Source: an uncultured Bacilli bacterium
GTDB taxonomy: Bacteria > Bacillota_I > Bacilli_A > RF39 > UBA660
Direction of reading: 5' to 3'
DNA length: 35,817 nucleotides
NCBI GenBank assembly: GCA_947629265.1
Contig: CANRCZ010000013.1
Location: 1-35,817 of the forward strand
In this document: positions 28,685 through 35,817 of the stretch, one piece after another
How positions within the stretch are numbered: the stretch's first letter is position 1
How the letters are laid out: every line of letters starts with the position of its first letter
Position numbers and translations under genes: made by a program
Notes under the pieces: generated by a model
Seen by the model: only the letters and a program-made list of their open reading frames with translations
Told to the model about the DNA's origin: nothing
Databases searched by the model: none

Positions 28685-28750
28685 CAAAATCACTTTATTC
28701 TAATATAATACTAGCCAATATTTTTATATATGTAAGTTGAGGTGGTCAAA

Positions 28751-30310
28751 ATGGATATAAAGTATTATGAAGAATTAATAAAAAATATGAACAATGCAGA
28801 AAAAGAAGCAATTGATGAAGAAAAAGAATCAATCGATGAAGAAACGGTTTGGAATTATATAAAGGTAATAGAATCCGGCGGAGAATTTTTCTCTGGTTCT
28901 GATAAGGCTAGGAGTTTTCTTGATTATATTTCATTAAATGATAAACAATTAGAATTTATTATGAATAAGGACTCAATTTCATTACATAAAATGTTATGTT
29001 ATTCTAAACCTTTATATTTAGGTAATAATGAAAGATATAATAAGATTTATTTTCCTATCAATAACTTTCCAATAATAAGAATAATGGATTATTGTTTAAA
29101 ACATGGTTATTTTGAACATTTTAGTGTTTGTACAGAAAGATTAGAAGCTTGGGCAATGGACGCTTACTGGAATGCTCGTCATGATTTGATAGAAGAAACT
29201 ATAAATAATTATCGTAATAATCCAGATTTCTTCTTTATGTTTGATAATGTAAAAGCATCTATTGTTAAAAAATACATAACTTTAAGTGATATACCTAACT
29301 TAACTTATAGAACCGCTAAAATGTTAATATCAAAAAATATACTTCCAGAATATTTTATAAATACAGATGAATTCCTTAGTGTATTTAAGACTTTCACTTT
29401 TGAGGAACAAATATACATAACCGAATTATTAGTTGGATATGAGTTTGATTCAGCAATTATTACTAAATTACATTCATTATTTAATAAAGAAGATATAGAA
29501 AAAATAGAAGATAGAAAAGAATGGGAATTATTATTAAATATCTTTGAAATATCACCTTATTATTTAACAAGAATAACCGACCAAATTAAACGTTCATCAT
29601 ATTTTAAAAAATTTAATGTTGAAAAAAGTGAATTTTGGTTATTTGTGACTGAATTATTAACTGGTGACGGATTAAAACATATCGATAGGATAGATGACAA
29701 TTTATACGCAAAACTAATGGATCTTTATCAAAAGTGTTATAACTATGCTACTGAATCTATTGTTTCTTCATTATATCCTTTAAGTGAATTAAAAGACGAT
29801 ATTACATATATAGATAAAGATAAATATAATCTTTTATGTCGTGTTCAAACCCTTTTTGATTTAGACGATTTAGATGAATCATTTAGAAAAAGAACATTCT
29901 GTGGATTTAGTGTTTTAAATCAAGATAATTTTTCACACTATCCAGGAGGGCTTGTGTATGGTTATTATTCTAAATTAACACCAGATATGATTGCACATAT
30001 CTTCCCAACTGATTCACTAAGTGCTTCATGGGCTTTATATAAAAAAGATTTATCATTGAAAATCAATATGTTGTTAGATATAGATGATTTGAATGCAATG
30101 ACGTATGAAAATAAAACTTACAATCAATTATGTATAAGAACTAAAACTAATGATAACGAAATACTAAGAGAAGATGCCATTATTTGCTTTGATAATGTAG
30201 ATGATTATGCCTTATGGTATCAAGAAAAACATAATAGCAAAATTTTAGTATTAAGAAGAAATGAAAATACTATTGAGTATAATGAAGACATTTATTCTGA
30301 TCTTCAATAA
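28751..30310 (+). CDS. Large hypothetical protein, function unknown
   Basis: A 519-residue soluble protein. I start at ATG 28751, with GAGGTGG seven bases upstream; an upstream GTG would add three residues. The N-terminus is acidic and helical (KEAIDEEKESIDEE). The middle is helical with many aromatic residues and several ankyrin-like short helices (HKMLCYSKPLYLGNN, IMDYCLKHGYF), though no clear repeat. The last 110 residues form a more compact alpha/beta segment with REDAIICFDNVDD and SKILVLRRN. That end resembles a module recurring in large proteins of gut Bacilli, by general impression only. No catalytic motif is evident. Confidence 0.7.
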   Translation: MDIKYYEELIKNMNNAEKEAIDEEKESIDEETVWNYIKVIESGGEFFSGSDKARSFLDYISLNDKQLEFIMNKDSISLHKMLCYSKPLYLGNNERYNKIYFPINNFPIIRIMDYCLKHGYFEHFSVCTERLEAWAMDAYWNARHDLIEETINNYRNNPDFFFMFDNVKASIVKKYITLSDIPNLTYRTAKMLISKNILPEYFINTDEFLSVFKTFTFEEQIYITELLVGYEFDSAIITKLHSLFNKEDIEKIEDRKEWELLLNIFEISPYYLTRITDQIKRSSYFKKFNVEKSEFWLFVTELLTGDGLKHIDRIDDNLYAKLMDLYQKCYNYATESIVSSLYPLSELKDDITYIDKDKYNLLCRVQTLFDLDDLDESFRKRTFCGFSVLNQDNFSHYPGGLVYGYYSKLTPDMIAHIFPTDSLSASWALYKKDLSLKINMLLDIDDLNAMTYENKTYNQLCIRTKTNDNEILREDAIICFDNVDDYALWYQEKHNSKILVLRRNENTIEYNEDIYSDLQ

Positions 30311-31540: not shown

Positions 31541-32152
31541 TTAAATTTTTTTAACTAATTTTTTATTGTCTTTATAATTTAGTTTATACCACTCGATAAA
31601 TTCATCAGTTGCATTTGTATGATTATCAGGTCTATTATTTCTTTCTTCATCCGTCATTTCAGCTAGCGTTTTATGACAGTTATTCGGTATAAATACAAAC
31701 CATAAATTTGATTTAGCTCTTTTTATTTGCTCACCCTTTATTTCATATGAAAGACTACCTTTGCTCACTCCAAAAAATTGAAAATAGTCATTACCATCAA
31801 AGAATGTTAGACAATCTAGAAAATAACAATTTCTATTTTTAACATTTTTCATCGTTTCTAATAATTCTTCAACATTAGAAGCAACACCGCTTCTTTTAAC
31901 AAAGGCACCAGGATATCCAGGATTGTTAGGGTAGTCTTCTATATAAAAACCAGAGTCTGCTACAAATACTGGAGTACCTAACATATCATAAGCTTGTCGA
32001 GCTTTTTCTTTTGATATGAATTTTATATCATTGACATTAGGTTCAACTAGATCACATTTAAAATAATCTATTTCAATACCAGCTTTTTCAAATTTTTCTT
32101 TTACAGATATATATTTACCATAATTACCAGTTATATAAGTTAAGTTTTCCAT
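31541..32152 (-). CDS. Ham1/RdgB-family non-canonical NTP pyrophosphatase
   Basis: A 203-residue ITPase-like protein. The family removes deaminated or otherwise odd nucleoside triphosphates (ITP, XTP) by releasing pyrophosphate. Substrate-binding TGNYGK (8-13), catalytic ADSGFYIEDYPNNPGYPGAF (65-84) and C-terminal NHTNATDEF are present. It diverges from the housekeeping RdgB pattern (EDSGL with a following SARY) and has an unusual middle. Its ATG is one base after the stop of the SIS gene, so the two are translationally coupled; a role tied to a sugar-nucleotide or modified nucleotide handled by the SIS protein is plausible. Confidence 0.85.
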   Translation of the reverse strand: MENLTYITGNYGKYISVKEKFEKAGIEIDYFKCDLVEPNVNDIKFISKEKARQAYDMLGTPVFVADSGFYIEDYPNNPGYPGAFVKRSGVASNVEELLETMKNVKNRNCYFLDCLTFFDGNDYFQFFGVSKGSLSYEIKGEQIKRAKSNLWFVFIPNNCHKTLAEMTDEERNNRPDNHTNATDEFIEWYKLNYKDNKKLVKKI

Positions 32153-32153
32153 A

Positions 32154-33251
32154 TTACATTTCTCCTTTATATTTATATAATCTTTTTACTACATTTGGGT
32201 TATATTCAGGCATCGTTAAATCGATTTCTTTATCATCGGCTATTTTTTTAGATAAATAATACATTTGTAATGCTAAATAATATTCTTTCCAAAATAAACT
32301 TTCATCTTCATCTAAAGTGTTAAATAAGAAAATATTATCATACTCTTGTTTTAAAATTGATAATAATTCATCATCTAATCCTTTCATTTGATGCGCTAAA
32401 TAGATAATAGGACTTGTTTGATTTTGAAATATTAAATTGCTTCTACCATGACAAAATGAACCTTTATCATGAGTAACAACACTAGATGTTCCTGTTTCTA
32501 TCATATTAGACTCTAAAATAGCAGAGGAACAAGCTGTATCGTAACCTGACATTATTTGGATTAAATTTGTATCTTTAAAATTAAAATCAAGATTATCAAT
32601 TTTTGTTCTACTTTTTTCAATTAATTGTTTTAATTTATCATTTATTTTTATTAAATCTTTTGGATAAAATTCAACTTTTTTAGGTTCAACTTTTTGAGTT
32701 TCTTTCAATATACTTAATTCTAAAATCATCAACATTGGAGCAAGGGTAGGAATTATTGAAACAAAACTTTTTTCTCTTTCCTCATATTTGCCACAGCTCC
32801 AATGAATAGTATCAAATAGTGGTACGTATTCACTTTTAAAATAACCTGGTGTAAGTTTGTAATCCTCCTCCTGTTCTTCATATTCACTGGTAATTAAGTA
32901 ACTGTTACCATGAAAACTCCTTAACATTTCTAATAATCCATTGGATTTGCCACTACTTGATAGTGCAATTAGACTTTTAAACTGATTAATATTTTTTTTA
33001 TAGAAATAATCTCTTGGCTCGATTACCTCGCATATTGTTCCTCTAGATTCTAAAAACATTTTAAGGTAATAGGCGGCAGCTTTAGAGCCTCCAGTAGCGA
33101 CAATCAATGTAGGAACGTCTCTAAATAAATAATCTGCTTGTCTACTAAACTGAAAGATCGTACATTGATATGGATCATTTACTTGCATTAGCCTTTCTTC
33201 TAATTTAGAAAAATTAATTTCTGCATTTTCGGTATTTACGTGTTTCATCAT
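32154..33251 (-). CDS. Double-SIS-domain protein (sugar isomerase-like)
   Basis: A 365-residue protein with two SIS domains, as in the isomerase half of GlmS and in AgaS/FrlB. Domain 1 has VATGGSKAAAYYLKMFLESR (51-70) and ALSSSGKSNGLLEMLRS, equivalent to the SxSGxT phosphosugar loop. Domain 2 has SGYDTACSSAILESNMIETG and GSFCHGR (264-270), equivalent to FxHGP of GlmS. The loops differ from metabolic enzymes, so the substrate is uncertain. AAAGGAGAG precedes the ATG. It follows a WYL regulator by 55 bases and precedes Ham1 with no gap, giving a three-gene minus-strand operon. Confidence 0.83.
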   Translation of the reverse strand: MMKHVNTENAEINFSKLEERLMQVNDPYQCTIFQFSRQADYLFRDVPTLIVATGGSKAAAYYLKMFLESRGTICEVIEPRDYFYKKNINQFKSLIALSSSGKSNGLLEMLRSFHGNSYLITSEYEEQEEDYKLTPGYFKSEYVPLFDTIHWSCGKYEEREKSFVSIIPTLAPMLMILELSILKETQKVEPKKVEFYPKDLIKINDKLKQLIEKSRTKIDNLDFNFKDTNLIQIMSGYDTACSSAILESNMIETGTSSVVTHDKGSFCHGRSNLIFQNQTSPIIYLAHQMKGLDDELLSILKQEYDNIFLFNTLDEDESLFWKEYYLALQMYYLSKKIADDKEIDLTMPEYNPNVVKRLYKYKGEM

Positions 33252-33306
33252 AAAAAATCTCTCCTTTACTAGTTATAGAATAACAGAAGAAGAGGCAATA
33301 TTTATG

Positions 33307-33786
33307 TCAGTTATAAAAATTTTCTAACATTTTGATCGATTTAATTCTATTTATATAAAAATGTCTTATTTCTTCTTTCACTTCACAGTAGGCGGCAACG
33401 CCCCATTCATTACCTAAAACGATTAAATCATATGGGTGAATAGTTCTTTTTGATAGTTCTTTTAAATCTTTAGAATAGTATTCTATAAAACATTTTCTTT
33501 TTTCCTTTATAGCCCGATTTATTAAGTTAAAGAAATCTTTATTTTTAAGATTGATAGTATTTGGTGTAATAAATCTTTTAGGAACATTAATATTTTGATT
33601 TAAAACATATCCGCCATAAGGACCTTTAATAGTATCGATATAAATACCAGCTTTTTCTAGTTCATCTTTATAAACACGTACCATTCTAGGTGATATTTCA
33701 AGTTTGACGGCTAATTCATGAATACTGTATTTTCGACCTGAACTTAAATATTCAAGCATGGTAAGAACGTTGCTGATTTTAGACAT
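33307..33786 (-). CDS. HTH plus WYL-domain transcriptional regulator
   Basis: A 159-residue protein. Residues 1-60 form a winged helix (YSIHELAVKLEISPRMVRVY, then DELEKAGIYIDTIKGPYGGY). Residues 85-155 form a compact WYL domain (RKCFIEYYSKD, then HPYDLIVLGNEWGVAAYCEV, then RHFYINRIKSIKML), which in the family senses nucleic-acid or nucleotide ligands. The usual third WCX extension is missing. WYL regulators often control phage-defence or stress genes. Its promoter contains a palindrome over the -10 box, consistent with self-repression. It heads the SIS-Ham1 operon and is divergent from the gene at 33899. Confidence 0.88.
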   Translation of the reverse strand: MSKISNVLTMLEYLSSGRKYSIHELAVKLEISPRMVRVYKDELEKAGIYIDTIKGPYGGYVLNQNINVPKRFITPNTINLKNKDFFNLINRAIKEKRKCFIEYYSKDLKELSKRTIHPYDLIVLGNEWGVAAYCEVKEEIRHFYINRIKSIKMLENFYN

Positions 33787-33805: not shown

Positions 33806-33838
33806 GTATATTATATACGAAATAAAAAAATTTATCAA
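33806..33838 (-). promoter_or_regulatory. Promoter and candidate operator of the WYL operon
   Basis: Minus strand TTGATA (33838-33833), a 17-base spacer and TATAAT (33815-33810). The 13-bp palindrome GTATATTATATAC (33806-33818) covers the -10 box and is a natural candidate site for the regulator. Confidence 0.55.
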
Positions 33839-33898: not shown

Positions 33899-34516
33899 AT
33901 GATTAAAAAAAGAGAAAATATAGACGAAACAATGATGAAAAAATTTATTGAGTCATGTGTTGAAAAAGAAAAATATAGAACAGAAAAAATTAAAGATATG
34001 ATGACTAATCCAGATTATTTTGAATGGCTTAACGAATTCACTCAAGATAAAAAAGGTTTTTCTGATGATACTTGGTTATATTTTCCAAATGAAATAAAGG
34101 ATTCTGATAAAGAAAATGTGGAAGAGTTACATTTATTCTATGATGGAATTGATAAATACGCTAGCGCTAATTATATTTATCCAGTAGATTGTGAATATGG
34201 TAATTTCTATAAAATTAGATTAGATGAAATAGGTTTTGAAATTGGTGTTTTAAGTGGTCAAGGAGTAGTATTTTTCTGTAAGAAAGTTCCAGTAGAAAAT
34301 GAACAAGAATTTATTGACTTTAATGATATCATGACTGGTAAAAAACAAGAAGAGGTTGACCGAATTGATGCAAGTTTAGATTTCTTATCAGAGATGGTTT
34401 TAGCTACTTATGAAAGTGGTGTACCAATTGAAGCAATAGCTAATAAGTTAGATAGTGTAGTAAAAGAATTAGCAGTCAAAGATGAAGATAAAGCTAAAAC
34501 ATTGATAAAAAAATAA
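33899..34516 (+). CDS. Hypothetical protein, divergent from the WYL operon
   Basis: A 205-residue soluble, acidic protein with CAGGAGG as ribosome binding site. N-terminal helices (KKFIESCVEKEKYRTEKIKD) are followed by a beta-rich middle (YPVDCEYGNFYKIRLDEIGF, then EIGVLSGQGVVFFCKK) and a helical C-terminus. I recognise no domain. It shares the control region with the WYL operon, so the same regulator may affect it. Confidence 0.68.
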   Translation: MIKKRENIDETMMKKFIESCVEKEKYRTEKIKDMMTNPDYFEWLNEFTQDKKGFSDDTWLYFPNEIKDSDKENVEELHLFYDGIDKYASANYIYPVDCEYGNFYKIRLDEIGFEIGVLSGQGVVFFCKKVPVENEQEFIDFNDIMTGKKQEEVDRIDASLDFLSEMVLATYESGVPIEAIANKLDSVVKELAVKDEDKAKTLIKK

Positions 34517-34654
34517 AATACAATGTTTTGTTATAATTAATTTTTAAGTAAAAAACTAAGATTACTTGGTTTTTTAATTTTTAATTAAAAGTGGTTAAAA
34601 GTATTCCATTTTAATTAAAAAAACTGTATGATAATATTTAAGGAGAGATTATTA

Positions 34655-35599
34655 ATGAAAAAAATTGATACTAATGGATTTAATAAAACATTAGAACATA
34701 GTTATAGAATTAAAAGGGAACATGAAATAGCAGAATTTAAAGAGGCAATTAAAGAAAGGGGAATTCTTCCTATTTTAAGAGAAGAAAAACTCTTTATTTA
34801 TAAGATATCTAAAACAGAAATTCTTTCAGAATTAATCACTGCTTATAAAGATAACATGTCTGAGACATATAACGTAGTAGTTTTAAATGATGAAAAATTC
34901 AAATCAGATCTTTGTAAATCAAGTTATTTGCCTTTTTTTAGAAATATGCTTAATTATAGACCATCGACACCTGAAGAAATTTGGGAAAAATTTAATTTGA
35001 ATAACGAACAAAGTAGAAAAGATTTTATCGAACAAAATGCTAGGGAGATTGAAATTCAGATTACTATGTCTGACCTAACATATTTAAAAGGTTACAGAAA
35101 AGAAAAGATTGGGGAAATTGTAAAGAGAATATCACATGATTATGTTACTTGTATATTTAAAAGAGATTCAAAATTGTCAGCTATAATTGATTTTATAGGT
35201 ACCAAAAATTATTTTGATCTTGATTTTATTGCTTCTAAAGCAGTTGAATTTTTATCTTCAAATAGGGTAGCTTTCGCTAGCGGTTCTACTATTCTTAAGG
35301 ATGAACGAATGGCTATTGATAGAATGCCGTTTACAGATAAAGAAAAGTCTATGTCTGAGGATGAAAAACTTATAATTCTTAAGGATATAAAAGATGCTTT
35401 TAATATAGAGTGTGTATACTGTGAAGAGGTTGATAAAATATCCGATAGTCAACTTGAAAGCATGTTAGGAACTAGTTCTAGAGAAAATGTTATAGATTTT
35501 TCAAAACATAATACGGATATATTAGATAATAGTGATTTTTCACCTATATATAATGAAATTATGTCTAATGTTTCTAAAACTTTGAAGAAACAAAAATAG
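34655..35599 (+). CDS. Hypothetical protein next to tRNA-Cys
   Basis: A 314-residue soluble protein. I start at ATG 34655, with AAGGAGAG at the right distance; an earlier ATG at 34628 lies before that site. Mostly helical with a charged N-terminus (KREHEIAEFKEAIKERGILP) and a segment LTYLKGYRKEKIGEIVKRIS in the middle. The end is polar. I recognise no family or catalytic motif. It lies 138 bases downstream of the gene at 33899, on the same strand, but has its own leader. Confidence 0.65.
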   Translation: MKKIDTNGFNKTLEHSYRIKREHEIAEFKEAIKERGILPILREEKLFIYKISKTEILSELITAYKDNMSETYNVVVLNDEKFKSDLCKSSYLPFFRNMLNYRPSTPEEIWEKFNLNNEQSRKDFIEQNAREIEIQITMSDLTYLKGYRKEKIGEIVKRISHDYVTCIFKRDSKLSAIIDFIGTKNYFDLDFIASKAVEFLSSNRVAFASGSTILKDERMAIDRMPFTDKEKSMSEDEKLIILKDIKDAFNIECVYCEEVDKISDSQLESMLGTSSRENVIDFSKHNTDILDNSDFSPIYNEIMSNVSKTLKKQK

Positions 35600-35743: not shown

Positions 35744-35817
35744 TGGAGGGCCTAGTCGGATTTGAACCAACGATCAGGGAGTTGCAGTCCCACGCCTTAC
35801 CACTTGGCTATAGACCC
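35744..35817 (-). tRNA. tRNA-Cys (anticodon GCA)
   Basis: The minus strand folds as a complete tRNA. The acceptor is GGGTCTA with TAGGCCC. The D-arm region is AGCCAAGTGGTAAGGC. The anticodon stem GGGA/TCCC carries the loop CTGCAAC, anticodon GCA. The T-arm contains GTTCGAATC. The discriminator is T, as expected for Cys, and CCA is encoded. It touches the right edge of the window. Confidence 0.95.

Follow-up and report, generated by a model that had tools for sequence, protein, structure and literature searches.

A recurrent and modular WYL-SIS-Ham1 operon of uncultured Bacilli as a candidate WYL-switched metabolite-repair system

An operon in which the gene for a WYL-domain transcription regulator is followed by genes for a predicted double-SIS phosphosugar isomerase/deglycase-like enzyme and a predicted nucleoside triphosphate pyrophosphatase of the Ham1/RdgB fold is real, recurrent and apparently undescribed. 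We analyzed it in a window of 35,817 nucleotides, the whole of contig CANRCZ010000013.1 from an uncultured Bacilli bacterium. The full gene order was present in 49 non-identical loci, every one of them from uncultured gut Bacilli, a recurrence that is far beyond chance, and the trio is not a fixed or obligatory set, since relatives of its regulator head operons with other gene combinations. The explanation that we favor, at close to an even chance and on the strength of sequence comparisons and structure models, is that the genes form a modular metabolite-repair operon switched by its WYL protein.

All three genes lie on the minus strand in the order WYL, SIS, Ham1, and the open reading frames proposed for them in an earlier note on this DNA were confirmed. 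The WYL gene (33307..33786) encodes a 159-residue protein that contains both an HTH_11 domain (PF08279, E=2e-7) and a WYL domain (PF13280, E=2e-16), the combination expected of a WYL regulator, and ends right after the latter, leaving no WCX. The SIS gene (32154..33251) encodes 365 residues; its match to Pfam SIS (PF01380) is sub-threshold (18.3 bits; cut-off 25), and its double-SIS identity comes from an AlphaFold model (pLDDT 87) and Foldseek. The Ham1 gene (31541..32152) encodes 203 residues with a predicted non-canonical base pocket, and its match to PF01725 (E=1e-19; 71.3 bits, cut-off 22.5) places it in the superfamily. The domain identities given in the earlier note were therefore borne out, as was the single base that it placed between the SIS stop codon (TAA, 32156-32154) and the Ham1 ATG (32152-32150). 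The SIS-Ham1 gap is 0-2 bases in most trio loci. In the window, the last SIS codons double as a probable Ham1 ribosome-binding site (AAGGAG, 32162..32167, read from the sequence), from which translational coupling of SIS and Ham1 may follow. Transcription of all three genes together, as also claimed, holds for SIS and Ham1 as far as spacing shows, but WYL and SIS are separated by a conserved promoter-like element, suggesting that SIS and Ham1 have a start of their own. The WYL gene has a candidate sigma-70-like promoter (TTGATA-17-TATAAT, 33810..33838, minus strand; 11 of 12 matches in a consensus scan). The source assembly comprises 1.22 Mb in 44 contigs and is 91% complete. Long open reading frames near the operon (28742-30310, 33899-34516 and 34628-35599) had no trusted Pfam or NCBIfam match, and a tRNA-Cys gene (35744-35817) ends exactly at the contig end, where the assembly may have broken at a repeat or an integration site.

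A neighborhood survey for the trio, which the earlier note had proposed as a check, showed the set to be kept together in the 49 loci, and a literature search for a WYL-SIS-Ham1 operon found no paper describing it; the idea of a candidate undescribed system accordingly stands. Scanning 85,000 species genomes yielded 80 loci, nearly all labeled as uncultured Bacilli, Bacillales, Tenericutes or Erysipelotrichaceae and many derived from gut metagenomes. One record labeled Candidatus Saccharibacteria (L127) has a Bacilli-type trio, its bin being probably mislabeled or mixed. Presence across the order is patchy: an SIS profile search found relatives in 64 of 288 genomes, as a rule one copy each, and in a sample of 392 genomes from the phylum its matches were confined to the family to which the window belongs. 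In almost every related locus the operon begins with a WYL orthologue, and no metabolic pathway gene was seen consistently adjoining the window-type trio. Searches of phages, plasmids and viral contigs found no homologue, for which reason mobile carriage by phages or plasmids was rejected.

The element between WYL and SIS is a putative promoter/operator at the 3' end of the WYL gene (33277..33308, minus strand). In the window it is composed of GAC (33308-33306), AAATATTGCC (33303-33294), eight further bases, TG (33285-33284) and TATTCT (33282-33277), and its core may also be given as GAC-ATATTGCC. The same element, with the consensus GAC-N3/4-ATAYTNCC-N8-TGnTA, occurred at 92 of 98 WYL-effector junctions, whichever effector gene comes next, and the CC-to-TG spacing was 8 in all 65 loci where a -10 box fits (CC-N8-TGnTAnnnT). 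It lies at about -24 to -38 relative to this -10 box, which is of the extended type, and a normally spaced -35 is absent. The window's own genome contains a single site (33303..33281), where the chance expectation is 0.02 per window, and a motif search of that genome found no further regulon members. A weight matrix located 128 sites adjoining WYL 3' ends in 3.7 Mb (both strands counted) together with 16 other matches, the strongest of which precede SIS or Ham1 with WYL cut off, displaced or missing. Loci L070, L107 and L174 are examples, with the element kept ahead of SIS despite a displaced or absent WYL gene. A looser motif applied to 291 genomes recovered mostly known loci plus matches without WYL, and a backwards control pattern matched too. 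Taken together, these sequence patterns suggest that the element is likely the target of the WYL protein. Its binding there and the direction of control are what we infer from sequence, and a repressor role, as in CapW, is possible. Autoregulation of WYL via the element was rejected, as the element was not found upstream of WYL genes.

To our knowledge, few WYL domains have an identified ligand, which for PafBC and DriD is single-stranded DNA, and for most WYL regulators no signal is known. Like PafBC and DriD, the operon regulator is an HTH-WYL protein; it differs from them in being a single short chain that lacks WCX and in its putative local control of one operon. PafBC is a WYL activator switched by single-stranded DNA, and its promoters carry a -26 motif (PMC11804915) that the operon element, known here from sequence, resembles in position only. 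A WYL regulator also controls CBASS, BrxR controls BREX, and CapW is a WYL repressor (PMC9122588). As in the CapW and BrxR loci, the WYL gene of the operon adjoins genes probably under its control. Unlike those regulators, it encodes no WCX, its element lies downstream of the regulator gene, and no defense locus follows.

Foldseek matched the SIS model, which has two SIS domains in one chain, to 2aml, the GlmS isomerase domain, FrlB and NagB-II. A putative catalytic pair, Glu252 and His268 (16-residue spacing; codons 32448..32498, minus strand), is invariant across all 143 copies that contain the HGR loop; it aligns with E233/H249 of FrlB in a profile alignment that is weak over full length, and E489/H505 of GlmS are equally spaced. 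By sequence alone, the SIS profile matches single FrlB or GlmS sequences weakly. The SSSGKS and FCHGR loops, taken to be altered in the earlier note, are present but canonical: they match the phosphate and catalytic loops of GlmS and FrlB, and the phosphate-loop serines S56 and S98 are kept. A conserved general acid and base have been reported for FraB and FrlB (PMC9609667). In relatives of the operon, PfkB kinases that mostly keep the GAGD motif lie beside SIS or are fused to it, and these align with FrlD (hhalign probability 92%). The operon thus shares with FrlD/FrlB and FraB the double-SIS fold, the Glu/His spacing and, in relatives, the PfkB-fold kinase; it differs from them in having no transporter, in its WYL protein, which replaces a Frl-type regulator, and in the presence of Ham1, and its SIS protein is ~12% identical to FrlB in a structural alignment. 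The simplest reading of model and sequence is that SIS is a phosphosugar isomerase/deglycase.

For Ham1, the best Foldseek matches of the AlphaFold model (pLDDT 89) were archaeal ITPases (E=1e-15), with KomB of the Kongming system among the next. Each of the 63 copies has N10, K13, E37, K50 and D66, and the counterparts of the RdgB catalytic and triphosphate residues N10, K13, K53 and D69 are all kept, the codon of the catalytic Asp66 (RdgB Asp69) lying at 31955..31957 on the minus strand. In ITPases, the FGYDP and SHR motifs read the 6-oxopurine base. A residue census of the 63 copies found these motifs replaced by SxLWxVF and RxDxxTSA, and the protein scores 86 bits against the TIGR00042 RdgB/ITPase equivalog, whose cut-off is 145. 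KomB, by comparison, has His-Thr-Gly at the Asp66 position in a HMMER alignment. Since the catalytic residues are kept, the base-reading motifs replaced and the Asp lost from KomB, Ham1 seems to be an enzyme that prefers another base, and a dead sensor of the KomB type was rejected. It therefore shares with the RdgB/ITPA house-cleaning pyrophosphatases their fold and their catalytic, metal and triphosphate residues, but not their base motifs; also in contrast to them, it is not housekeeping in this lineage and is probably under WYL control.

Relatives of the trio show other arrangements, namely WYL-Ham1, WYL-SIS, WYL-SIS-PfkB and WYL-HAD-HAD/PRTase-PfkB:SIS, the latter three all within the trio's own family. 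At least 8 genomes have a Ham1 of the same clade immediately after WYL, with SIS absent; in one such locus (L212) a short SIS-start-like leader persists ahead of Ham1, suggesting that SIS was deleted. Both WYL-Ham1 and WYL-SIS lie under the same promoter-like element. The sister operons with the PfkB:SIS fusion (L012, L074, L075, L077, L078, L082-L085, L089-L092, L094, L095) encode a HAD/PRTase-like protein of ~775 residues with no trusted Pfam match, and in many of them CPxC and CxC motifs occur in the PfkB part; the labels HAD and PRTase come from motifs read by eye plus one weak HAD match, and we found no tie of the HAD and HAD/PRTase-like proteins to a known function. In L220 and L222, Ham1 proteins of a second clade are encoded together with a related WYL gene and with the same promoter element, and the genes that come next specify a PRTase-like protein, a radical SAM protein and a P-loop kinase, with a YhhQ-like transporter also present in L220; these two operons look like nucleobase salvage.

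Pairwise comparison of the 49 trios showed that divergence of WYL tracks that of SIS (rho 0.89), whereas Ham1 and SIS are almost uncorrelated (rho 0.23). The WYL sensor domain correlated with SIS at rho 0.87 (partial 0.80 given HTH), compared to 0.19 (partial -0.15) with Ham1. SIS adjoins both other genes, so adjacency alone cannot account for co-variation that is confined to WYL and SIS. At the DNA level, window-like loci resemble L064 or L169 in the HTH-coding part, diverge through the WYL-domain/SIS block, and become similar again ~40 bases ahead of the SIS stop, a likeness that extends through Ham1. The co-variation of the WYL domain with SIS and not with Ham1 argues that the WYL signal belongs to SIS chemistry; most likely, judging from these sequences, what the WYL domain detects is a compound linked to the reaction of SIS, with Ham1 an addition that can be exchanged.

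Exchange of modules and presence in 64 of 288 genomes also fit a role in defense or conflict, and we counted them against metabolite repair. They keep open an anti-phage system in which WYL would respond to infection or damaged DNA and Ham1, alone or together with SIS, would deplete or sense an unusual (deoxy)nucleotide, as in Kongming. Precedent for this comes from the WYL regulators of CBASS and BREX described above and from Kongming itself, which uses dITP, KomB and an NADase (PMC12948488, PMC12774641) and is the only case found in this analysis of a Ham1-fold protein in defense; both Foldseek and HMM comparisons match Ham1 to KomB, the Ham1-fold dITP sensor. The likeness is that of a Ham1-fold protein in a nucleotide-linked accessory operon. 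Nevertheless, the operon consists of WYL, SIS and Ham1 only, with neither the KomA deaminase nor the SIR2 NADase KomC; no SIR2, TIR or other toxic effector domain is encoded, SIS is not a known effector, and Ham1 keeps the Asp that KomB lacks in the alignment. PADLOC matches on the trio are confined to the WYL/HTH part, those among the 118 neighbors, scanned on their own, are scattered and mostly generic with no defense island, and the phages, plasmids and viral contigs searched hold no homologue. The phage response raised in the earlier note, which had suggested a survey for defense islands, thus found no support, and we regard an anti-phage system as unlikely, at roughly one chance in five in our judgment. 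Somewhat less probable still is that gut Bacilli possess a nucleotide-based system for stress or immunity with swappable modules, in which WYL would sense an SIS-tied phosphosugar or nucleotide in place of single-stranded DNA, the promoter would be PafBC-like, and exchangeable Ham1 proteins would act against modified, possibly phage, NTPs.

We give similarly low credence to one linear pathway in which Ham1 and SIS carry out successive steps in the removal or salvage of one sugar-modified nucleotide. The one-base SIS/Ham1 gap with its probable translational coupling would suit such a pathway, as would the kinases, HAD phosphatases and PRTase-like protein that accompany SIS in relatives. However, Ham1 and SIS are each found alone behind the same WYL gene and element, making a single pathway through all three unlikely, and the near lack of correlation between SIS and Ham1 divergence points the same way. 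Of the nucleotide clean-up proposed in the earlier note, the part that fits is an intact Ham1 chemistry with a non-ITPase pocket; SIS and Ham1 as one linear pathway does not. Improbable to a further degree is an ordinary ITPase that replaces housekeeping RdgB beside an accidentally adjacent sugar isomerase: Ham1 is the only PF01725 protein found in its own genome, but its base-recognition motifs are gone, several trio genomes carry a second Ham1, a profile search found none in 163 of 243 family genomes, and the 49 loci with conserved adjacency refute a chance SIS/Ham1 pairing.

For the favored metabolite-repair operon, the activities, substrates and ligand that we infer for its proteins can be combined as follows. 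The WYL protein would bind the conserved element where its own gene ends, just upstream of the extended -10 promoter, and a ligand in the WYL domain would alter transcription of the next gene or genes. SIS would isomerize or split a phosphorylated sugar conjugate, which in relatives the neighboring or fused PfkB may produce, as FrlD does for FrlB. Ham1 would convert an abnormal NTP to NMP and PPi, probably no longer with specificity for ITP or XTP, and the two enzymes would work in parallel on products to which one and the same stress gives rise.

The operon brings together, in compact form, three short genes, a defined promoter-like element and natural variants in which SIS and Ham1 are added, dropped or swapped. 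Co-variation of the WYL sensor with SIS points to a testable class of WYL ligand, and through the Ham1 branch a new kind of abnormal nucleotide, one that cells need to remove, may come to light.
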